From: Veillonella sp. KGMB01456
GTDB taxonomy: Bacteria > Bacillota > Negativicutes > Veillonellales > Veillonellaceae
Direction: 5' to 3'
DNA length: 64,000 nt
NCBI RefSeq assembly: GCF_023051165.1
Contig: NZ_JALKIG010000009.1
Location: 1 to 64,000 of the forward strand
The notes under the pieces were generated by a model. The model saw only the letters and a list, made by a program, of their open reading frames with translations, was not told the origin of the DNA and ran no database searches. Positions 5,732 to 50,397 of this stretch are shown here, piece after piece. The translations under genes and the position numbers were made by a program. Position 1 is the first letter of the stretch, and each line of letters starts with the position of its first letter.

Positions 5732-8700
5732 CTATTTATTAGCCAACTGGCGCATAATTTCCTGAACTTGCGTACGTAATTCCGCATTTTCCTGAGCCTG
5801 CTGTTGAACCTGAGCCCGTAATTCTTCAATCGTAGAATTCTGGTTTGCTAATTGCTTAGACTGTTCAGATACAACTTCGGCTAAGGCAGATTTCGAGTAA
5901 TTCGAATACTCGTTACTGCTACCGAACTTAACACTTACGCCGGCATTAAACATGTTTTCACCGCCGCCCATGCTGGTGCCGATGGAGAATAACAAGTCAT
6001 TCGTCGGACGATAGAACGCACCAATTGCTACAGCATTAGCCGATTTGTAGTTACCGTAACCGGCGGCAAAATCCCATTTAGCAGTCGGATCGTAATCTTG
6101 CGGATGCAATGCTGCTAAAGCGGCCGCACCGGCACCGACACGATTAATACGATTGTCCAGTTTGTTAACCTGACTGTTCAAGCTGGTTACGTTATTGGTA
6201 ATATTGCTTACTTCGTTGGAAATGGAAGTAATATTATTGGTGTTCTGCGTAATCTGAGTCGTATTAGCAGCTACTTGGCTATCTAAAGCACTCAGGTTTT
6301 GGCCGGCTGACTTAGATTTTTTCACGTAAGTACCGTCTTCAGCAACGCGTGTTTCATTATAAACAGTACCGCCGGTAACAATTCCTTTATTGTCTGCAAC
6401 TACCTTGCCATCGGTGTTCACTTTGATTTTGTAATTAGTTCCGCCGATACTATTCTTTTCTGTGCTGTCGATAGTAATTGTGCTATCACCATCAGCATTG
6501 GCAATGGTATTTCTCGTATCAACGGCAGCTGCAATTGTAGACAAGTTAACGCTTCCGGAAATGATTTCTTTTCCATCGGAATTCTTAATAGATAGACCTA
6601 ATTTATTATCTTTAAAGCTCAAAGCATCCGTACTTTCCTGTAGCCCTGTACCCGCAGCATCCAAAGCCGCTTTAAGCTGCGCCACGTTGACCGCATCGGT
6701 ATCATTGGTACCGGCTGCAACATTGGTAATTTGACGAGTTAAACCTGTTTCACTATCACCAACGGAAACAGCCGCCGCACCGGATTGCCAAGCGGATGTA
6801 ATCTGAGTTTTTTCCGATACAGCTGCCGTATAGGCTTTATTGGCATCATTCACGGCTGTTTCTGCCGTATCCATAGCGGCTCTTGCTTCATCATTGGCAG
6901 TCTTAGCAGCATCCATCCGTTCTTTAATTTTTTTACCTTGATTCGAATCATGGTCAATACTGTTATAAGCATTTACAGCCTGAACATAATCGGCATTTTT
7001 GGCCAGATAATCAGAAACCTTGGTTTCATAATCAGCTTTAGCTGTCGAAAGAGCGGATTCCAAATCAGGGATACTGCTATTTAATTCGGCAAATCGATCT
7101 TCTTTGCCGGCATAAGCAACAATAGCCACTTCATTTTCAAAATCTTTACCTGTAATCGGATTATAGCCAAATAACCCTTTGTCAACAGCCGATACAGAAT
7201 TACTGCCGATAGCCACGCCACCATCATGTTGTACGTCCGTATTATAGCCGAGCATAACAGCGTTGCTGATATTTTCCGTATGTTCACGTAACGGTTTTTG
7301 CACCTTCACCGCATAGTGCAGCGTATCTCCTGTCCACTGTAAATTTCCGGTCACATGTTCAAAACTCTTAGGCGTATGAGATTGTTCTTCATAGCCTACT
7401 TTCGTTCCCATAGTTCCAAGAATTACGTTATTTTTGCTACCCGATAAGGTATGGTAATCACCGATGACAACATCCGTAGTTGCGTCGCTAAGCGTATTGC
7501 CGCTCCCCATGACAGAGACATGATTCACATTAGTGGCTTTATTTTGATAACCGGTAACCATATTATAATCACTGACTGCAGCTTCGGTGCCGCTTAAAGT
7601 ATTGCCCGTTCCAAAGATGGAAGATCGTCTTGCATAATCCGACACATTGCCGTTCCCAAGTGCAAATACGGAACCCCCATTTAAAGTTGCAAACTCACCC
7701 ATCACCTCGGAAGAACGATCTGTATAACCAAAATCGTCCCCTGCATGATAATAGAGCTCGCCCCAACGGCCCGTCATAAAACCGCCTTCAATACCTTCAG
7801 TCATATTACCGGCTGCATTGGTCACACGGTTACCGGTACCGAAAACCATGGAACTCAAAGACGAATCAACTTTATTCAAAGTCCCAAAAGTTCCGGTTGC
7901 AATCGAAACACCCATTCCATTCTCGGAACTAAGCTTATTATCCACGCCATAAAGAGAGGAATAAACAGTCATTCCCTCAATGGTTGAACGAGTGCCAACA
8001 GCTGTACTGAGAGGCCCTAAGCTCTGAACTCTATGCCCGATTGCTGTAGTGCCATCGGCTCCCAATGCATGGTAACCAATAACAACCATTTTCCGATTAC
8101 CAACTCCGATAGTCTTCTTTTCTTCAGGTGATAAAGAGCCTATGATAATAGAATCCAGAATATTACTGCCTTTTTGATTATCACCGATAATAATACCTGC
8201 TGCCGCACCGTCAATATCATTATTATTACCGATAACCGTTAAGGAGTCCCATTCATTGCGATACGTATGATTACCGGTAAGGACATTACCGCGACCAATG
8301 GTTAAGTCGGAAATATTAGGTTCACGGCCTTCCGGATGACCATAGTCAGTAACGGTACCAACATCTCGACCGATTATTTTATTATTATCACCGATAACGT
8401 TTTGTTTACGACTCCCCCGTACTTCGTTGTTATTACCTAGAACACGAGTATCAACGCTGGCTTCATATCTTGTTCCACCCTGCCATGGGTAGCTCTTTGT
8501 TACCTTATTATCATTACCTACAATATTAACGCCATTGGTGTCTTCAACGGTATTGGTATCCCCAATAACATTGGCATCTTCACTGCCGGTCACTGAATTT
8601 TCCGTCCCCACGACACGAGCCGTTTTGTCATCAGTTACGGTATTCGTTGTCCCCGTAGCGGTACCACTGTCTACAACGATGTTTTCTGCTGCTAACACTT

Positions 8701-8785
8701 GCCCGCCTAATAACAGACTCAATAATACGGCACTGCTCAAAGAAGCTTTGACTATGCGACGACGATTTTGATGCTTTGTTTCCAT
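5732..8785 (-). CDS. YadA-like trimeric autotransporter adhesin with C-terminal coiled-coil tail
   Basis: 1017 residues from the ATG at 8785 (RBS GAGAGGAG); an upstream ATG at 8830 lacks an RBS. Signal peptide about residues 1-33, ending QVLAA. The head (about 35-560) has many GNxNxV repeats typical of the YadA left-handed beta-roll. A charged Ala-rich coiled coil of about 90 residues follows (RFAELNSSIPD to SEKTQITSA), then a neck, ITNVAAGTNDTDAVNVAQL (about 680-700). A stalk rich in NxxNIT heptads leads to the membrane anchor (about 880-955, ending VSVKFG). The protein does not end at the barrel: about 60 further residues form a Gln/Glu-rich coiled coil that would face the periplasm. The family trimerises, self-inserts in the outer membrane and mediates adhesion or aggregation. 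Ligand unknown. Confidence 0.93.
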   Translation of the reverse strand: METKHQNRRRIVKASLSSAVLLSLLLGGQVLAAENIVVDSGTATGTTNTVTDDKTARVVGTENSVTGSEDANVIGDTNTVEDTNGVNIVGNDNKVTKSYPWQGGTRYEASVDTRVLGNNNEVRGSRKQNVIGDNNKIIGRDVGTVTDYGHPEGREPNISDLTIGRGNVLTGNHTYRNEWDSLTVIGNNNDIDGAAAGIIIGDNQKGSNILDSIIIGSLSPEEKKTIGVGNRKMVVIGYHALGADGTTAIGHRVQSLGPLSTAVGTRSTIEGMTVYSSLYGVDNKLSSENGMGVSIATGTFGTLNKVDSSLSSMVFGTGNRVTNAAGNMTEGIEGGFMTGRWGELYYHAGDDFGYTDRSSEVMGEFATLNGGSVFALGNGNVSDYARRSSIFGTGNTLSGTEAAVSDYNMVTGYQNKATNVNHVSVMGSGNTLSDATTDVVIGDYHTLSGSKNNVILGTMGTKVGYEEQSHTPKSFEHVTGNLQWTGDTLHYAVKVQKPLREHTENISNAVMLGYNTDVQHDGGVAIGSNSVSAVDKGLFGYNPITGKDFENEVAIVAYAGKEDRFAELNSSIPDLESALSTAKADYETKVSDYLAKNADYVQAVNAYNSIDHDSNQGKKIKERMDAAKTANDEARAAMDTAETAVNDANKAYTAAVSEKTQITSAWQSGAAAVSVGDSETGLTRQITNVAAGTNDTDAVNVAQLKAALDAAGTGLQESTDALSFKDNKLGLSIKNSDGKEIISGSVNLSTIAAAVDTRNTIANADGDSTITIDSTEKNSIGGTNYKIKVNTDGKVVADNKGIVTGGTVYNETRVAEDGTYVKKSKSAGQNLSALDSQVAANTTQITQNTNNITSISNEVSNITNNVTSLNSQVNKLDNRINRVGAGAAALAALHPQDYDPTAKWDFAAGYGNYKSANAVAIGAFYRPTNDLLFSIGTSMGGGENMFNAGVSVKFGSSNEYSNYSKSALAEVVSEQSKQLANQNSTIEELRAQVQQQAQENAELRTQVQEIMRQLANK

Positions 8786-9111
8786 CCTAAAACTCCTCTC
8801 ATACCCTATACCATATAACACTTTTACCATGCGATGAACTCAAATTATACCCCTTATAAATTCATCAAATATTCACTATAATTAAATGCTAGCACTTTTA
8901 TCATGTAGGGTCAATGAGAGTATTAGTTCATATTTATCACATTTGCCCAAAATACAATCAATATAGCATAATTTTCTTTGATAAAACAATCTATATCACT
9001 TCATCTAACCTTTACAAGCTTAACAAATTCACACTATAACCATCCCATTACAATCATCAATATTTTGCGATAATTCATTGATAAAATTTTAGTAAGTATC
9101 TTGTTTTCCAA
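8786..9111. other. AT-rich upstream region of the adhesin gene
   Basis: About 320 bp, very AT-rich, between the adhesin start and the terminator of the TauE gene. No ORF with an RBS is seen. It must hold the adhesin promoter (minus strand), but several TATAAT-like hexamers occur and none stands out. Confidence 0.4.
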
Positions 9112-12676: not shown

Positions 12677-12847
12677 TTACTTTAATAGTTTCTCCAATGC
12701 ACGTTGTCGTTTTTTGCATTTTTCTTTCACCGGTCGGCAATGGTTGCCGCACACTTGACAACGACCTTTACTGTCGGTCAGCAAGGCTTTCTTTTCCGCC
12801 TTGGTCGTCTCGTGTAGGTCCGGTAATTTCTTACCAAGGCGTTTTAT
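12677..12847 (-). other. Possible -1 frameshift extension with Cys-rich tail
   Basis: Directly after the slippery run A-AAA-AAA (12847-12853) at the end of the repetitive protein gene, the -1 frame is open for 56 codons to a TAA at 12677. It encodes a Lys-rich segment and CQVCGNHCRPVKEKC, a C-x2-C-x3-C-x6-C pattern like a small zinc site, then a basic helix ending EKLLK. This frame has a stop just upstream of the run and no ATG or RBS, so it is best explained as a C-terminal extension reached by -1 ribosomal or transcriptional slippage, by a real one-base deletion, or by a sequencing error in the A-run. The next terminator lies after its stop. Confidence 0.55.
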
Positions 12848-14694
12848 TTTTTTGGATTTTTGTCATCCGAATTGCTATGTAATTTTTGCAGGGCATCATC
12901 GATGAAGTCCAATACGCCCAAAGCCGCACCGCGAGCGCTTTCTTTCATATTGTCCGCTACTTCGGAAATATGATCGGCTACTTTGTCAGCTACTTCTTGA
13001 GCTCGTTCAGATAATTCATCGGCTTTATCGGCAGCCTGGTCTTTCAAATCAGCCGCTTTATCGGCTAATTCATCTACTTTGTCCGATGCCTGTTCCTTTA
13101 AGTCTTGCGCTTTATCAATTGCTTGATCTTTCAAATCAGCCGCTTTGTCGGCTAATTCATCTACTTTGTCGGATGCCTGTTCTTTAAGCTCTTCCGCTTT
13201 ATCGGATGCTTGGTCTTTCAAATCAGCCGCTTTGTCGGATAGTTCATCAACTTTATCGGCTGCTTGGTCTTTCAAATCAGTTGCTTTGTCGGCTAGTTCA
13301 TCAACTTTGTCCGACGCTTTATCTTTTAACTCTTCTGCTTTATCAGTTGCTTGATCTTTTAATTCTTCAGCTTTATCAACAGCTTGGTCTTTCAAGTCTT
13401 CAGCTTTACCGGCCAATTCTTCAGCTTTATCGGAAACTTTTTCAACAACTTCTTCTGCTTTGCCATCAGTGGCTTGATTCAAATTCTTGGCTAATTCTTC
13501 TTTAGTGGACATTTCGTCTACCACCTTTCCTTTGACATCATTCACTTTTGACTGCACTGCTGTTGCTACACTGCCAGCTGTTTTGGAAATCTCTTTTGTT
13601 TTGTCAGCCGCGGTGTTAGCTACATCATCAGTCAACTCTTCCAAATTTTGATACCATTCTTCGCTGCGCTCTTGCACGCCTTTTTTGGCGTGTTTCGCTT
13701 TTTTCAATGCTTTTTTTGTTTCTTTTTCAGCCGCTTTAGCTGCTTTTTCAGCTTCTTTCGCGACTTTCTTAGCTTCTTTTTTCGCTGCTTTATGGGCTTT
13801 TTTAATAGATTTTTTTGCCTGTTTAGCGAGTTTTTTAAATTCTTTCCACTCCGTATGGAGCATCAAATCTTCAAGCGTCATTGTCCCCTCTTTGCCATCC
13901 GGCAAGTTTTGGCTCAACATGTCCAAAATATCTTGCAAAAAGATTTCCGATGTTGGGAATACGTTATGATCGTCATCCTCGTCATCATCCACCTCAGCTG
14001 CAAACGCCGCCGAATCGGCCGTTCTCACCCCCGCATTCAATACAGCATTCGTTCCTGCCAATAAATTGTCATCCGCATCGGCTTTTACACTATGAGTTAA
14101 AGATGATTGCGGAATATCTCTATCAGTAATGGCATCAGCTGCCACTGCCTGTGTTTTAGCTGCCGTCGGTTCAGCCACAAGGGTACCATCTTGACGTGGT
14201 ACTACCGAGCCGTCACGGCGATTTACAACGGAACCATCCTGACGAGTCACTACTGTGCCATCTTGACGCGTAGCTACAGCACCTTCACGACGTGCCGCTA
14301 CCGTACCGGCTTGGCGTAATGCAACCGGTCTTTCCGAAACATCTACATCCGCCAAATCCACTTGATCTATGTTTAATTCTTCACTGGTTAGTTCATCCCC
14401 TTGGGCCTGAAATTCATCTTCCAAGGAATCATATATATGAAGCTGCTCTAACAAGTCTTGCGTTTCATCGATTTCCTGCCACAAACTGTCCAATAACGCC
14501 GTATAAAATAAGCGTGCTTTCACTTCTTCATACGCCTGACGCGTAATATGAAGTTCTTCATATGTCAGGTCTTCAGTACTATCCAGCTCTTCTATTAACT
14601 GCTGAATATGACGATCCTCAGCATACTTATTCTGTAACGAACGACGAACCGATTCAATAACAGACTTACCAATGATGCCATGACGATTATGCAT
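12844..14694 (-). CDS. Repetitive LEA-like helical protein of unknown function
   Basis: 616 residues from the ATG at 14694 (GGAG 8 bases upstream; the ATG at 14709 has its RBS too close). No recognised family and no signal peptide or membrane helix, so probably cytoplasmic. In order: a helical charged N-domain (1-120); six exact tandem octapeptides with consensus xTRQDGTV (125-172); an acidic stretch EVDDDEDDD; a very Lys/Ala-rich segment (about 285-345); and 15 tandem modules of 11 or 7 residues, such as DKVDELADKAA and DLKDQAA. The 11-mers resemble group 3 LEA or apolipoprotein-type amphipathic helix repeats. It ends DDKNPKK on a slippery A-run with an open -1 frame behind it. A stress or scaffold role is only a guess. 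Confidence 0.75.
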   Translation of the reverse strand: MHNRHGIIGKSVIESVRRSLQNKYAEDRHIQQLIEELDSTEDLTYEELHITRQAYEEVKARLFYTALLDSLWQEIDETQDLLEQLHIYDSLEDEFQAQGDELTSEELNIDQVDLADVDVSERPVALRQAGTVAARREGAVATRQDGTVVTRQDGSVVNRRDGSVVPRQDGTLVAEPTAAKTQAVAADAITDRDIPQSSLTHSVKADADDNLLAGTNAVLNAGVRTADSAAFAAEVDDDEDDDHNVFPTSEIFLQDILDMLSQNLPDGKEGTMTLEDLMLHTEWKEFKKLAKQAKKSIKKAHKAAKKEAKKVAKEAEKAAKAAEKETKKALKKAKHAKKGVQERSEEWYQNLEELTDDVANTAADKTKEISKTAGSVATAVQSKVNDVKGKVVDEMSTKEELAKNLNQATDGKAEEVVEKVSDKAEELAGKAEDLKDQAVDKAEELKDQATDKAEELKDKASDKVDELADKATDLKDQAADKVDELSDKAADLKDQASDKAEELKEQASDKVDELADKAADLKDQAIDKAQDLKEQASDKVDELADKAADLKDQAADKADELSERAQEVADKVADHISEVADNMKESARGAALGVLDFIDDALQKLHSNSDDKNPKK

Positions 14695-14825
14695 ACTTCC
14701 AGCTCCCATCTTCCTATACCTTCGGTAATAAACATTAAGCTAAAAACAGTAAAAAGCAAATCTATATCATCGAGTGCTGGCTTTTTAGCCATCCCTACAC
14801 ACCCGGATTCGGTGAATCTATCTCT

Positions 14826-18383: not shown

Positions 18384-18947
18384 TTATAATTTACCTACAA
18401 GGTCAAGACCCGGTTTTAAAGTATCTGCACCCGGTTTCCATTTAGCCGGACAAACCTGGTCACCATGTTTAGCTACGAATTGAGCTGCCTGCACTTTACG
18501 AACCAATTCATCGGCAGAACGACCGATACCCATGTTGTGGATTTCAGCAGTTTCTACTTTGCCTTCCGGATTTACTACGAAAGAACCGCGGTATGCACGA
18601 CCTTCTTCTTCGGAGAAAGTTTCGAAGAAGTCAGCCAGTTCATGTTTCTGATCAGCTAACATAGTGTACTGAATTTTTGCGATGTTTGGAGACGCATCAG
18701 CCCATGCTTTATGTACGAATTCGGAGTCAACGGATACGGAGAATACTTCTACGCCCATTTCCTGCAATTCTGCATAATGGGACTGTAAATCTTCCAATTC
18801 GGTAGGGCAAACAAATGTGAAATCGGCCGGATAGAATACGAATACGCTCCATTTGCCAACTACATCTGCTTTAGTTACTGTTACTACGTCCGGATTGCGG
18901 AAACCCTGTAAGGAAAAATCAGGTAATTCTTTGCCGATAATTGCCAT
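18384..18947 (-). CDS. ahpC: Peroxiredoxin AhpC (typical 2-Cys)
   Basis: 187 residues. The peroxidatic Cys sits in FYPADFTFVCPTELEDL (about 38-54) and the resolving Cys in GDQVCPAKWKPGADTLKPG (about 165) near the C-terminus. It reduces hydrogen peroxide and organic peroxides in the cytoplasm. No ahpF is adjacent, so its reductant must come from elsewhere. Monocistronic by context: strong RBS AAGGAGTG, own terminator. Confidence 0.96.
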   Translation of the reverse strand: MAIIGKELPDFSLQGFRNPDVVTVTKADVVGKWSVFVFYPADFTFVCPTELEDLQSHYAELQEMGVEVFSVSVDSEFVHKAWADASPNIAKIQYTMLADQKHELADFFETFSEEEGRAYRGSFVVNPEGKVETAEIHNMGIGRSADELVRKVQAAQFVAKHGDQVCPAKWKPGADTLKPGLDLVGKL

Positions 18948-19344: not shown

Positions 19345-20919
19345 TTATTTTACTAAGCCCTTAGCTACCAAAAAGTCATGAGCTACTTCTTTAGGACTCT
19401 TATGCTCCACGTCTACTTGATAATTTAACTCACGCATTGTGTCCGTGTCTAAGGTTGCCATCATACGATTAATAACATCTTGTAATTCAGGATGTTCTTC
19501 TATGGTTTCTTGGCGAACCAACGGTACACCGTAATACGGCGGAAAGAATCCTTTATCATCAGCCAAAACAGTCAGATTATATTTCTTTAATAACCCATCT
19601 GTAGAAAAGGCATCCACTACCTGTACATCACCGCTTGACAACGCCACATAGCGCGTGGCCCCGTCAATGCCTTTAGCATCTTTAAAAGTAAAACCATACT
19701 CATTTTGAACGCCGCGTAAACCATCCTGACGATTCAAAAACTCAAGGGTAGTACCGGCCTTCAAAGAGGAGGCAACCTGACTTAAATCACTCATGGTATG
19801 CAAATTATACGCCTGTGCCACAGCAGGATCTACCGCCAAGGTATAGGTATTGCTGAAAGGAGCCGCCGCCAACAAGGCAACATCATACTTCTTCGCCAAT
19901 TCCTCTTTCGTTGTATCGTATACTTCCTGCTCATCGCTTATGGGATCATGTTTTAAAATATCCACATAGGCCGTACCGGTATAATCAATATACGCATCTA
20001 AATCGCCTTTTTCCATGGCACTAAACAGCACCTGGGTGCCGCCGGCACCTAAGTGACTTTCTATCTTAATATTTGTATTTTTTTCAATCATTTCACCCAG
20101 CATATTACCCAACACTAACTGTTCGGTAAACTGCTTACTCCCGATACGAATCGTATTAGGATCTTTAACTAAATTGGCATATACATTCTGCCCAAACATA
20201 AATACCAGTAAGGCTACTACGACGCCGACACTCCATTTCTGGCGACGTCGTTTAGCCGTAAGGGTCGAGCGAGTTTTCAACAACTCAGGCTGCAAACTGA
20301 CCGGTGTTACCAATGACTCCACTTGAGACAGCACCCAGTCAATGGCCAAGGCCAATATACAGGCAGGAATCGCGCCGGCCAAAATCATACCGTTATTAAC
20401 GGAACTGATGCCGCTAAAAACTAAAAAGCCCAAACCACCGGCGCCGATAAAGGCGGCAATTGTCATAAGGCCTACGGCCGTAACGGCTGAAATTCGTACA
20501 CCCGCCATTAACATAGGCAATGTTAACGGTAACTGTACCTTCCATAAAATTTGTTGACGTGTTAAGCCAATCCCGCGAGCCGCCTCAATGGTGCCCGGCG
20601 AAATCTGACTGATGCCGATATAGGTATTTTTGACAATCGGCAAGAGGGAATACAAAAACACCACAATGACCGACGGCAAGGTACCAATCCCTAAGAGTGG
20701 AATGGCAAAACCCAATAAGGCCATGCTGGGAACCGCTTGAATTAAGTTAGTAGCCCCCATGACCGGCTTATTTAAAGGCTTTACGTAGCTGATTAAAATC
20801 CCCAGCGGCAAGCCCACCAGAATAGCTAACCCCACCGCAATGGCAGTTAGCTGGATATGCTCTAACAAAAGACGCATAATCTGATCTATATTTTCAAACA
20901 TATAACTAAATATACCCAA
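19345..20919 (-). CDS. ABC importer: fused permease and substrate-binding protein (OpuC/BusAB/EgtU-like)
   Basis: 524 residues. Residues 1-215 form an OpuCB/ProW-type permease with the EAARGIGLTRQQ coupling motif. A single helix follows (about 232-250), then an OpuBC/OsmF-type binding domain (IRIGSKQFTEQLVLGNML, LGAGGTQVL, DAYIDYTGTAY). The domain would sit outside the membrane, tethered to the channel. The start is TTG, supported by GGAGG 8 bases upstream inside the previous gene's end; the first in-frame ATG would lose that RBS. The fused layout is shared by BusAB (glycine betaine) and EgtU (ergothioneine), so quaternary amines or ergothioneine are the likely substrates; neighbouring regulation favours an osmolyte. 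Confidence 0.88.
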   Translation of the reverse strand: MGIFSYMFENIDQIMRLLLEHIQLTAIAVGLAILVGLPLGILISYVKPLNKPVMGATNLIQAVPSMALLGFAIPLLGIGTLPSVIVVFLYSLLPIVKNTYIGISQISPGTIEAARGIGLTRQQILWKVQLPLTLPMLMAGVRISAVTAVGLMTIAAFIGAGGLGFLVFSGISSVNNGMILAGAIPACILALAIDWVLSQVESLVTPVSLQPELLKTRSTLTAKRRRQKWSVGVVVALLVFMFGQNVYANLVKDPNTIRIGSKQFTEQLVLGNMLGEMIEKNTNIKIESHLGAGGTQVLFSAMEKGDLDAYIDYTGTAYVDILKHDPISDEQEVYDTTKEELAKKYDVALLAAAPFSNTYTLAVDPAVAQAYNLHTMSDLSQVASSLKAGTTLEFLNRQDGLRGVQNEYGFTFKDAKGIDGATRYVALSSGDVQVVDAFSTDGLLKKYNLTVLADDKGFFPPYYGVPLVRQETIEEHPELQDVINRMMATLDTDTMRELNYQVDVEHKSPKEVAHDFLVAKGLVK

Positions 20920-22047
20920 TTATATTACCTCCGCATCATCTACATACTGACTTCCTAAGGTGGTAATTAAACTACTTTGTGTAATGACCCCCGCCAGGCG
21001 TTCAGAATCATCCAGTACAATCATATACGGACGGTGCAAGGTCTGAATTGTTTCTACCACATCTAATAAGGAATCCCCCACATGAGCCAATTTCTTCGGC
21101 TGGGCCATAATTTCACTGACAGGTCCTTGTAAACTTATTTGCTCACGAATCATACGGGCATTAACTAAGCCTCTAAAACGACGCGTGCCGCGGTCTACAA
21201 TAATAAGGAAATCTTGAGGGATATCTTTAATTTTTTTCATACAACGGAATAAACTGTCCGTCGGATAGGCGATATTGGTGGCATCAATCATGATGTCTTC
21301 CGCTTTGATGAACTCCGGCGAGTTCCAAATACGATTTTTACCAATAAAGCTTTCTACATATTCCGTAGCGGGATTCCGTAAAATTTGTTCCGGCGTATCG
21401 TATTGTTCTACATGACCTTCACGCATTAAACAAATACGATCCGAGATTTTAATGGCTTCATCCATATCATGGGTTACGAAAACAATCGTTTTCTTTAATG
21501 TTTCTTGTAAACTGCGAAGCTCATCCTGCAAGGACACACGCGTAATAGGGTCAATCGCAGAGAAAGGTTCATCCATCAAAATAACATCCGAATCGACAAT
21601 AAGCGCTCGTGCTACGCCGACACGTTGCTGCTGACCACCGGATAATTCGATGGGATAACGATTCAATAAATCACAGGATAAATCAACGAGGTCCATCATT
21701 TCATTAATCTTCTCAGCCCGACCTTCTTGCGGCATCTTATGAAGATCCATAACTAATTCTAAATTTTTACGAATTGTCATATGCGGGAATAAACCCGTTT
21801 GTTGGATAACATAACCAATCTTACGACGCAAGGTTACAGGTTCCATATCATGAATATTTTTACCATTTACATAAATATCGCCACCTGTAATAGGAATCAA
21901 GCGATTAATCATTTTAAGCAATGTGGATTTACCACAACCACTACCGCCGATGAGCGAAACAATTTCACCATCGGGAATAGTCAAACTAATATCATGTAAT
22001 ACTTCTTTTTTGCCATATCGTTTCTTTACGTTTTTAATTTCTATCAT
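20920..22047 (-). CDS. ABC importer ATPase with CBS pair (OpuCA/BusAA/EgtV-like)
   Basis: 375 residues. Walker A GGSGCGKST (about 34), signature LSGGQQQRVGVARAL (about 135), Walker B VILMDEPFSAID (about 155), H-loop VTHDMDEAIKI. The C-terminal third (about 255-370) holds two CBS motifs, which in OpuA-type systems sense ionic strength or nucleotides including c-di-AMP. Energises the fused permease/binding protein that follows with no gap. RBS GGGAGG. A 42-bp inverted repeat covers its promoter. Confidence 0.93.
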   Translation of the reverse strand: MIEIKNVKKRYGKKEVLHDISLTIPDGEIVSLIGGSGCGKSTLLKMINRLIPITGGDIYVNGKNIHDMEPVTLRRKIGYVIQQTGLFPHMTIRKNLELVMDLHKMPQEGRAEKINEMMDLVDLSCDLLNRYPIELSGGQQQRVGVARALIVDSDVILMDEPFSAIDPITRVSLQDELRSLQETLKKTIVFVTHDMDEAIKISDRICLMREGHVEQYDTPEQILRNPATEYVESFIGKNRIWNSPEFIKAEDIMIDATNIAYPTDSLFRCMKKIKDIPQDFLIIVDRGTRRFRGLVNARMIREQISLQGPVSEIMAQPKKLAHVGDSLLDVVETIQTLHRPYMIVLDDSERLAGVITQSSLITTLGSQYVDDAEVI

Positions 22048-22058
22048 TCAATACCTCC

Positions 22059-22104
22059 CTAAAGTAACAACTCAATTCTAACATCAAGTTGTTACTTTAG
22101 TCAA
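22059..22104 (-). promoter_or_regulatory. Promoter with inverted-repeat operator of the ABC importer operon
   Basis: Perfect 14-bp arms CTAAAGTAACAACT (22059-22072) and their complement (22087-22100), separated by 14 bp. On the minus strand TTGACT (22099-22104) and TAGAAT (22075-22080) are 18 bp apart. One arm fills the -35/-10 spacer and the other lies at the expected transcription start, so a protein bound to both would block RNA polymerase. The neighbouring BusR-like regulator is the obvious candidate; this is inference. Confidence 0.65.
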
Positions 22105-22169
22105 ATATCGACTTTTATAAATATAGTATAGTATATATTACTTTATGTCATAATGTCCTATATAATACA

Positions 22170-22200
22170 AAAAAGCGCCCGACTCATGTCAGGCGCTTAT
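22170..22200 (-). terminator. Terminator after the GntR-RCK_C gene
   Basis: AAGCGCC-GAC pairs with GTC-GGCGCTT around TCAT with one mismatch, followed by six T on the minus strand. It separates the pyrG operon from the importer operon. Confidence 0.85.
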
Positions 22201-22286
22201 TGCGTTATATTGTAAATAAAATTATTAAATTATATAGTCAACCTTTAGTTAACCTTAAAACGTTACCGATTATCTGCCACAGACTG

Positions 22287-22928
22287 TTAAGCCTCATTTT
22301 CATCGGTATTATACAAAAAGCGTTCCAATCGCAACCAGCTGTCAGCGGGGCCGATAAAATAGATTTCTTCGCCCGCCGTAAAGGTAGCATACGGTCCCGG
22401 CGATATAATCATAGTCTTATCTTGATTTTCAATCGCCACAATGGTAACACCGGTATGTTGCCATAATTGAATGGATCCTATGGACTGTCCTAAATAACGA
22501 CAGTCCTCCGTAATGGACATTTTCATAGGTTGCAAAGGATTTTTATATTGGTAATGCCCCACCGAATCAGTTAATTTTTGTATCGTTTCTTTTAATCCCT
22601 GCAGGGATTTTGTTTGATTCTCAATTTGCTGAGTCAGCTCGCGTCGCAAAGAGTCCACCGAATCAAAATCGCTAAATTGCATGCGGAATTGTTCGGCTTT
22701 CTCTTTAGATAAAACTGTACAGCCACTCCCTTTAGTCACTTCGACAATGCCTAAATCTGCCAGCAAAGCGATGGCACGGCGCGAAGTTTCGGGCGACACA
22801 CCGTAGTGAACCGATAGAGCGGAGCGCGCAAAAATACGCTCTCCTTCCTTATACCCGCCGGATACAATTTTACCGGCCACATCGGCTGCAATTTGTTGAT
22901 AACGAGCTGTACGTACAGTTTTACTCAC
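22287..22928 (-). CDS. GntR-family regulator with C-terminal RCK_C domain, BusR-like
   Basis: 213 residues: GntR winged helix (about 1-72), a Gln/Leu coiled coil (about 80-122), and an RCK_C (TrkA-C) domain (about 130-210; LGQSIGSIQLWQHTGVTIVAIE, then ISPGPYATFTAGEEIYFIGP). This domain order is that of BusR, the c-di-AMP-dependent repressor of the betaine importer busAB in lactococci and streptococci. It lies next to a BusA-like importer whose promoter carries an inverted repeat. The start is GTG with AAAGGA 8 bases upstream, only 2 bases after the pyrG stop, so the regulator is made from the argS-pyrG transcript. c-di-AMP binding itself is inferred. Confidence 0.85.
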   Translation of the reverse strand: MSKTVRTARYQQIAADVAGKIVSGGYKEGERIFARSALSVHYGVSPETSRRAIALLADLGIVEVTKGSGCTVLSKEKAEQFRMQFSDFDSVDSLRRELTQQIENQTKSLQGLKETIQKLTDSVGHYQYKNPLQPMKMSITEDCRYLGQSIGSIQLWQHTGVTIVAIENQDKTMIISPGPYATFTAGEEIYFIGPADSWLRLERFLYNTDENEA

Positions 22929-22930
22929 TA

Positions 22931-24577
<1,647 letters not shown>

Positions 24578-47938: not shown

Positions 47939-48385
47939 TTATGCCTCCACTAATTCAACTTTAATAGTAGTCGTAATTTCAGGATGTACGCGAATCAACA
48001 CATCATGAACGCCCAAAGTTTTGAGCGGTTCTTTGAGTTCAATTTTCTTTTTATCAACGGCTACATCGAATTGAGCGGCCAAAGCATCGGAAATATCTTT
48101 ACCTGTAACGGAACCGAATACACGGCCCGCATCCCCCATTTTTACAGGAATGCGTACTTCTACTTTAGCCAACTGGCTGGCCAAAATCTTCGCTTCATCA
48201 GCATTTACTTGTTTCTTGTGAGCTGCCGAAGCTTGTTGCTGCTTAGCATTATTCAAGTTAGCAGGCGTACCTTCTAAAGCCTGGCCTTTTTTAATCAACA
48301 CATTGCGGCCGTAACCTTCACTGACCTCAATGATTTCGCCTTTTTTACCTACTTTTTTTACATCTTCCAACAAAATTACTTTCAT
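47939..48385 (-). CDS. rplI: Ribosomal protein bL9
   Basis: 148 residues. The N-terminal [31 protein letters not shown] and a C-terminal domain with [12 protein letters not shown] are diagnostic. Overlaps the end of gdpP by 4 bases (ATGA). Confidence 0.98.
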
Positions 48386-50397
48386 TCTGCTTTTTCCTCC
48401 TTCTTCATAGAAGCAAGCTGGCCTTTAGCTACACTTTTTACAGCTTCCACCGCTTCTTCCATGGTCATATCATATAGCTGGGCGCCGGCTACGGTACGAT
48501 GACCGCCACCGCCCAAGGCTTCCATAACAAGCTGAATATTCATAGCCCCTTGCGAACGGGCACTTACGCCGATACCGCCATCCGACAAAGTATAGAGCAC
48601 ATAGCTGGCTTCGATACCTTCAATGGTGATAAGCTTATCTGCCGTTTGAGCCGACAGAATGGACGCGTTCTGGATACCCGCCGGACAAGTGGTAATCGCC
48701 ATGCCGTCAAAACGTTCCGCATCGGCCAACATTTTAGCCCGCAATTGGATGCTGTCAAAACTTTCCATAAACAAATGGCGCACAATGGATAAATCCGCAC
48801 CGGAACGGCGCAAGAAAGACGCCGCATCAAAAGTACGCGATCCCGTTTGTACCACAAAGTTCTTCGTATCCACTACGATACCGGCATATAACGCACTCGC
48901 TTCCACCACATTGAGTGAAATCGGGTCTACGAAATACTGAATTAATTCTGTTACCAGCTCACTGGTGGACGACGAAGCCGGTTCCAAATAAGTGAGCAAT
49001 GGTTTTTCAATAAAGTCGGAGGCACGACGGTGATGGTCAATAACAACGCGACGTTTAGACTTCTGCAAGGCTTTTGGCGCCGCTACCATATCCGGTCGAT
49101 GCACGTCCACTACAAATACGAGGGTTGTATCGGTTACAAAATCTTCAGCCGCTTGTGGCGTGATTAACAGACTTTCAAAACCCGGTTCGGTAGGGAATAA
49201 ATCTGACAATTTCTTAATAGCCACAGTTTGATCGCTTACAGCTACGTGAACGGATTTACCGGCCGCTCTAGCCATGGCGGCTACGCCGATGGCACCGCCG
49301 ATACTGTCATAATCTTCACGCTCATGGCCCATGACGATAACATTATCGGCATCATCCATGAGTTCTTTAATGGCTTGTGCTACCACGCGGGCACGGACAC
49401 GAGTATTCTTTTCGGCGCCTTGCGTTTTACCGCCGTAGAATTTCAATTCTTCGCCGATATATACGCTGGCCTGGTCACCACCGCGACCAAGGGCTAATTC
49501 GAGACCGGAACGAGCTCGTTCCGATTGTTCTTTAATCGTAGCCGCACCGGCTGCAATACCGATACTGATAGTCGCCGGAATACGACGACTGGTCGGAATA
49601 TTATGAACCTTCGCCAAAAGTGGGAAATTTTGTTCAATCATATTCATTAGCGCTTTTTTAGAAATACAGAAGATGTACGAATCATCCGCATAGTTACGGA
49701 CAAAACCGTCGTAACGGTCAATTTCTTCTACGATGGCATTATTAATTTCCGCCCAGAGGTTAGTGTATTCAACGTCACTGAGACCTTTCGTCACATCTTC
49801 GATGTTATCCATCATGAGGAACCCGAATACCGGTGCCATCGCTTCTGCTTCATGGCGCAATTGTTCCGATTCGGTTACATCGTCAAAGTAGAACGCCATA
49901 TATGATTCCACTTCGGAGTCAGGCGCCCCTTTATAATCCGTGCCATCAATGAATTTATAGATAACACGATAATATTTATTTTCAATTTTTTCATTAAAAT
50001 AGCCGGACTTGCCCCAGATTTTATCGAGGCGCAAACTCGGAATAAAACCGTTAAGGCGTTGTGTTTTATCCGGATCTTGCGGCATCCAATCACGGAACAC
50101 GCTATTATACCAGCAAACACGAGCCTTACTGTCAATAATAACTATTGCTGTCGGCAAGTTCTGCAAAGCAAAATTCGACGCTTGGGTAATCCCCTTCGCA
50201 ATCGTATTAAATTGCTCATACCGTTGCTGTCGTTGTTTACACACCGCTCGGCTGCTGTATAAATAGGCCACAACGACAAACAAAAGGCCAAATAGCGCCA
50301 TCTGCCAGTTAAGCCAGGCAATCACTAATAGTAAAACGATGATAACAACGAAGGCGGTTTTTTCAAAGGCTCCAAAAAAGCCTTCATTCCCATTCAT
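48382..50397 (-). CDS. gdpP: Membrane c-di-AMP phosphodiesterase GdpP
   Basis: 671 residues in the standard GdpP order: two N-terminal helices (about 10-60), a PAS-like domain (about 65-165), a degenerate GGDEF domain (about 170-310, ALGRGGDQA in place of GGDEF), a DHH domain (about 345-490, with [20 protein letters not shown] and VVIDHHRRA) and DHHA1 (about 560-660, [13 protein letters not shown]). Degrades c-di-AMP to pApA. Its presence implies that the cell makes c-di-AMP, which matters for the BusR-like regulator elsewhere in the window. Operon with yybS, rplI and dnaB; RBS GGGAG. Confidence 0.96.

Follow-up and report, generated by a model that had tools for sequence, protein, structure and literature searches.

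Does a Firmicute with two membranes control the uptake of osmolytes through BusR, the c-di-AMP-responsive switch known from lactic acid bacteria? This question is raised by a locus of the Veillonella ratti group (class Negativicutes), a two-membraned gut bacterium, in which a putative busR gene stands beside the genes of an ABC importer. Here we analyzed this locus within a window of 64 kb (the whole stretch of DNA examined) and compared it with its counterparts in other Firmicutes. Altogether, the results indicate that it is very likely a BusR-controlled quaternary-amine ABC importer operon, most likely of the glycine-betaine type, with c-di-AMP as the predicted co-repressor. The kind of system is thus already known and the Veillonella locus, judged by sequence, adds a well-supported member to it, the operator being backed by unusually strong comparisons between genomes; a search of the available literature turned up no paper describing how c-di-AMP might govern the uptake of betaine in diderm Firmicutes, for which the locus offers a concrete, predicted c-di-AMP target.

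The regulator and the c-di-AMP machinery

All genes of the locus lie on the minus strand, in the transcriptional order pyrG (22931-24556), busR (22287-22928), an intrinsic terminator (22173-22198; an 11-pair stem followed by a T-rich tail), the importer promoter with its inverted repeat, the ATPase gene (20920-22047) and the gene of a permease/binding protein (19345-20919); the last two genes and busR were found exactly where the original prediction had placed them. The busR open reading frame (213 aa, GTG start) begins 2 bp past the end of pyrG, and since the terminator sits between busR and the importer, the latter has a promoter of its own. Domains were assigned to the gene calls with Pfam and NCBIfam.

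The regulator is 100% identical to its counterpart in V. ratti ATCC 17746 and contains a GntR domain at residues 9-71 and a TrkA_C (RCK_C) domain at 137-203. Its best structure matches were S. agalactiae BusR (7b5t, E 7.7e-41) and a second BusR-type structure (7wjg, 2.8e-36). Homology to S. agalactiae BusR is full-length, with 36% identity across 199 aligned positions and, as this protein has been solved in full length, the fold of the regulator is by homology that of BusR. The stretch between the wing and RCK_C measured 66 residues in all 69 aligned BusR proteins, so that the coiled-coil "ruler" is equally long in each of them. The domain order claimed at the outset (winged helix, coiled coil, RCK_C), which is that of BusR of S. 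agalactiae and L. lactis (PMC8517857, PMC5919688, PMC6108528), is therefore borne out by the Pfam domains and the 7b5t match; by sequence and coiled-coil length the regulator is of the BusR type, and it keeps most residues of the c-di-AMP pocket.

The roles of these pocket residues and of the autoinhibitory Y13 were taken from PMC8517857 (S. agalactiae numbering). The regulator keeps Y13 and, in the pocket, I153, G154, W159, T165, I166, P179, G180 and P181; the alignment shows the differences N157Q, V158L, H160Q, A164V and F182Y. Other BusRs also show N157Q and H160Q, whereas V or I at position 164, where the alanine of S. agalactiae BusR has been described as bounding the adenine (PMC8517857), is nearly confined to this genus among the BusR proteins compared. 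Both enzymes of c-di-AMP turnover are encoded in the genome, as in S. agalactiae and L. lactis: a diadenylate cyclase, the single DAC protein CdaA, followed on contig 12 by its YbbR-domain partner CdaR, and the phosphodiesterase GdpP, found in the window as anticipated (48382-50397, minus strand; GGDEF_GdpP, DHH and DHHA1 domains). No c-di-AMP riboswitch was detected in the window, nor a ydaO riboswitch in the genome.

These residues suggest that the regulator likely senses c-di-AMP. The changes of A164 to V/I and of H160 to Q in this genus could also point towards a BusR-like repressor of the importer that has lost this ability and responds to a different ligand or to ionic strength; binding of L. 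lactis BusR in vitro is also ionic-strength-responsive (cited in PMC10243994). However, most pocket residues are retained, numerous BusRs from Bacilli and lactic acid bacteria have glutamine at position 160, and CdaA and GdpP are both encoded, which makes such a loss of c-di-AMP sensing unlikely.

The importer and its predicted substrate

The ATPase (375 aa) belongs to the ProV/OpuCA family and carries a C-terminal CBS domain (Pfam ABC_tran and CBS; TIGR01186 above cut-off). Its partner (524 aa; Pfam BPD_transp_1 and OpuAC) is a fusion of a permease (about residues 1-215) with a quaternary-amine binding domain of the ProX/OpuBC type (about 255-524). The importer had been described as having the BusA layout, which holds for the gene order and for the permease/binding-protein fusion but not for the subfamily of the binding domain, which matches ProX, OpuBC and EgtUC rather than OpuA. 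In a structure-chain search this domain aligned best with OpuBC-derived sensor scaffolds, followed by EgtUC and AfProX, and L. lactis OpuA (7ahc) aligned to the fused protein only across the permease (18-208). Orthology to BusA/OpuA was consequently rejected, an OpuA-type binding domain being absent. OpuF of Bacillus and C. difficile is a ProX-type betaine transporter in which the permease is fused to a binding domain of the cluster F-III type. By its description, OpuF (mentioned in PMC9732360) shares with the Veillonella protein the fusion of a permease to a ProX-type binding domain and, judged by these features, the importer is OpuF/ProX-like.

The binding pocket was compared with that of AfProX, with the residue correspondence taken from PMC9732360. 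K13, F15, Y63, T66, F107, Y111, R149 and Y214 were matched, and Y190 is replaced by F, as in most relatives, a replacement that limits how far the substrate can be deduced from the sequence. The ergothioneine transporter EgtU belongs to the same overall family and shows the same fusion, and positions G244, F293 and Y337 of SpEgtUC separate ergothioneine from betaine binders (PMC9732360). The importer carries F, Y and F at these positions, i.e. it is of the betaine type, and the same applies to nearly all of its busR-linked relatives. The substrate class suggested by these residues is that of the quaternary amines, and the substrate is probably glycine betaine or a close relative.

We also considered that the same regulator and operator might govern an EgtU-type importer taking up ergothioneine for redox defence. 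EgtU was previously annotated as an osmoprotectant transporter (PMC9732360), EgtUC chains are among the structure matches of the importer, and a gene for an AhpC/Prx-type peroxiredoxin adjoins the importer downstream (18384-18947). Against this stand the three specificity positions (F instead of G244, Y instead of F293, F instead of Y337), the OpuBC-derived sensor scaffolds as top matches, and a second fused quaternary-amine importer in the same genome (contig 35, G000:C35; L102:2075-3616) that shows the G, F, Y signature for ergothioneine of S. pneumoniae EgtU, with no good BusR operator at its locus. A redox role of the locus is accordingly very improbable, and ergothioneine was rejected as a substrate of the window importer on its pocket residues.

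A 22-bp-spaced operator over the importer promoter

For the importer, a promoter scan returned a -35 box TTGACT (22099-22104) and a -10 box TAGAAT (22075-22080), both on the minus strand and separated by a spacer of 18; this pair ranks within the top two promoter-like matches of the region. Overlying it is a perfect inverted repeat with 14-bp arms, CTAAAGTAACAACT (22059-22072) and AGTTGTTACTTTAG (22087-22100), complementary at 14 of 14 positions around a 14-nt loop that contains the -10 box. Arm 1 (22087-22100) fills the -35/-10 spacer and overlaps the final two bases of the -35 box; arm 2 (22059-22072) spans the expected start site and reaches the Shine-Dalgarno sequence at its end. The sequence thus confirms both the promoter and the repeat of the original prediction, with a correction of the extent given there (22059-22104): the start at 22059 stands, and the repeat ends at 22100, since 22104 takes in the -35 box. 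With the -10 box in the loop and the -35 box partly overlapped, an occupied operator is expected to shut off the promoter. Likewise, one of the pair of BusR sites in S. agalactiae overlaps the -35, the -10 and +1 (PMC5919688).

Within the arms, AAC (22066-22068) and GTT (22091-22093) form AAC-N22-GTT. The BusR operator of S. agalactiae is 5'-GAC-N22-GTC-3', the coiled coil serving as a ruler, and insertion of 5 bp or removal of 10 bp abolishes binding (PMC8517857). The Veillonella site obeys the same spacing with AAC in place of GAC, a triplet that is the common form in the named loci of Clostridia and Bacilli. The likeness to S. agalactiae and L. lactis therefore extends to a bipartite, 22-bp-spaced operator over the promoter and to the predicted control of a betaine-type importer, whereas the half-site reads GTAAC and not GTGAC and, when compared with S. 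agalactiae, there is one site instead of two, the importer is of another subfamily and the host is diderm. When up to 2 mismatches are allowed, the core GTAACAAC-N16-GTTGTTAC is met a single time in the 64-kb window, against 0.02 expected.

Conservation of the site was examined at increasing distances. (i) A strong site precedes this importer in all seven genomes of the genus, and in these seven sequences the arms are conserved and the loop varies. Other matches in the seven genomes were similar in number to those of the reversed pattern, which served as a control, so that the search for a wider BusR regulon in the bacterium's own genome gave one strong site, with the remaining matches at the level of this control. 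(ii) In Negativicutes, 23 promoters of importers or of dapB near busR were compared, and 20 of them carry an operator with at most 2 of 14 mismatches; the set includes one importer of the G072 locus that is distant and probably no target. Where the genome or locus lacks busR, none of the 10 importers had such a site, all showing at least 4 mismatches, and randomised promoters reached 2 mismatches in 4 of 510 cases; one additional importer (G093), tallied as lacking busR by gene distance, has busR five genes off and a 3-mismatch site. (iii) Across 80 named Firmicutes loci, scanned with any spacing between 18 and 26 allowed, the best spacing was N22 in 47 promoters, N23 in 2 and N25 in 1, and a minority yielded no good site; L122-L127 come from strains already present as G006, G005, G003, G002, G004 and G045 and thus do not count as independent cases.

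The N22 operator predominates at busR-adjacent importers of Clostridia and Bacilli. Sites in Lactococcus and Enterococcus are GTGAC forms, i.e. the published motif, and those of Clostridium, Lysinibacillus and Ureibacillus (AAGTAACAAC-N16-GTTGTTACTT) have the same letters as the window. The busR-ATPase-fused-protein loci of Clostridium and Lachnospiraceae share with Veillonella the gene order, the fused QAT-type importer and the operator AAAGTAACAAC-N16-GTTGTTACTTT, although their hosts are monoderm and their regulators 40-45% identical. The original prediction thus passed this check: the repeat expected before orthologous importers adjoining the regulator was kept in all members of the genus and, in the named genomes, before most importers next to this regulator lineage, usually at a spacing of exactly N22. 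Comparison of these sequences indicates that a single BusR operator with 22-bp spacing is conserved across the range from Lactococcus via Clostridium to Veillonella. The possibility that the repeat is a terminator or an RNA hairpin and no operator is negligible: its perfect 14-bp arms could form a stem, but it spans a promoter rather than a gene end, has a separate terminator nearby (22173-22198), holds the -10 box in its 14-nt loop, is absent where busR is absent, and conserves from Veillonella to Clostridium and Lysinibacillus the letters of the half-sites beyond mere pairing.

Some promoters showed variant arrangements. Tandem operators about 43-45 bp apart precede the importer at L104 (4154/4199), L105 (3897/3942) and L080 (5083/5126), as in S. 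agalactiae busA. Operators were also seen before importers with more distant ATPase/permease proteins, possibly OpuA/ProU-type operons, at L243 (2834-2866, G079) and L109 (5082, G052), one of them with N24.

Given the elements observed directly, namely the genes, the promoter, the conserved and busR-linked operator, and the c-di-AMP enzymes, we infer by analogy that a BusR tetramer represses the importer with c-di-AMP as co-repressor. The rigid coiled coil would fix the distance between the two DNA-binding pairs of the tetramer. High c-di-AMP, made by CdaA and degraded by GdpP, would signal that turgor and K+ are sufficient; its binding to the RCK_C domains would free the winged helices, and the tetramer could then grip the half-sites AGTAACAAC and GTTGTTACT flanking the -10 box, rendering the promoter unusable by RNA polymerase. 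Upon hyperosmotic stress, c-di-AMP would drop, BusR would release the operator and the importer would be made.

BusR in other Negativicutes and a second dapB

The extension of BusR/c-di-AMP control to a diderm Firmicute, as originally predicted, proved broader than claimed, since many further Negativicutes families have a BusR-lineage regulator together with such operators. In the BusR tree (midpoint-rooted, with long branches, its named set gathered by similarity), a separate clade (100/100) unites 20 BusR proteins of other Negativicutes, whereas the window's BusR and that of Megasphaera cerevisiae belong to a clade placed (100/99) with Clostridia, Bacilli and lactic acid bacteria. By this tree, other Negativicutes have a BusR lineage of their own, and acquisition of the Veillonella BusR by transfer is a reasonable reading. 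In the same family, three further genera that lack busR retain the argS-pyrG synteny, and busR of M. cerevisiae does not adjoin pyrG; both observations are compatible with the block having been gained or lost. The copy of G063, the third Negativicute placement in the tree, nests inside Clostridium; its busR-importer locus (L073) has two tandem operators, N22 and N23, and looks like a recent transfer.

In the other Negativicutes, the operator CTAACAAC-N22..24-GTTGTTAG precedes quaternary-amine importers or a second, divergent dapB. This dapB2 matches the dapB model at about 1e-50, the housekeeping copy at about 1e-85; the window's genome has a single dapB. The dapB2 operators, seen in several families of Negativicutes, lie about 20-140 bp upstream of the gene, at loci adjoining busR as well as at loci unlinked to it. 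Five or six cases adjoin busR, and in the unlinked ones, where busR lies by an importer or elsewhere, the sites had 0 mismatches (L241:2689-2720, L244:2962 and L245:3006), 1 (L249:2206) or 2 (L247:2192 and L248:2137); additional dapB2 operators were found at L076:3599, L082:3433, L085:6296, L110:6208 and L074:3861. Tandem riboswitches for c-di-AMP and Na+ have been described before dapB in other bacteria (PMC9337991), so that a connection between BusR and dapB has a precedent through another mechanism. We consider it somewhat probable that the BusR/c-di-AMP regulon of Negativicutes exceeds osmolyte import and is tied to diaminopimelate/lysine metabolism, as a source of a cell-wall precursor or of an osmolyte precursor. 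If true, osmotic signalling would be linked to the supply of cell-wall precursors, and this operator before dapB2, outside the window, is the most novel lead of the present work. The BusR operator has so far been mapped in a few lactic acid bacteria, and BusR has no entry in a comparative-genomics paper on this group; the conserved site makes prediction of the regulon straightforward.

Finally, two further minus-strand genes of the window encode large repetitive proteins. The first (5732-8830; 1032 aa) has repeated head motifs of the GNxNxV type and a C-terminal coiled coil plus anchor, and looks like a trimeric autotransporter adhesin, which fits an outer membrane. The second (12844-14709; 621 aa) has long lysine/alanine-rich, KADELKDQA-like repeats and is probably an extended coiled coil.
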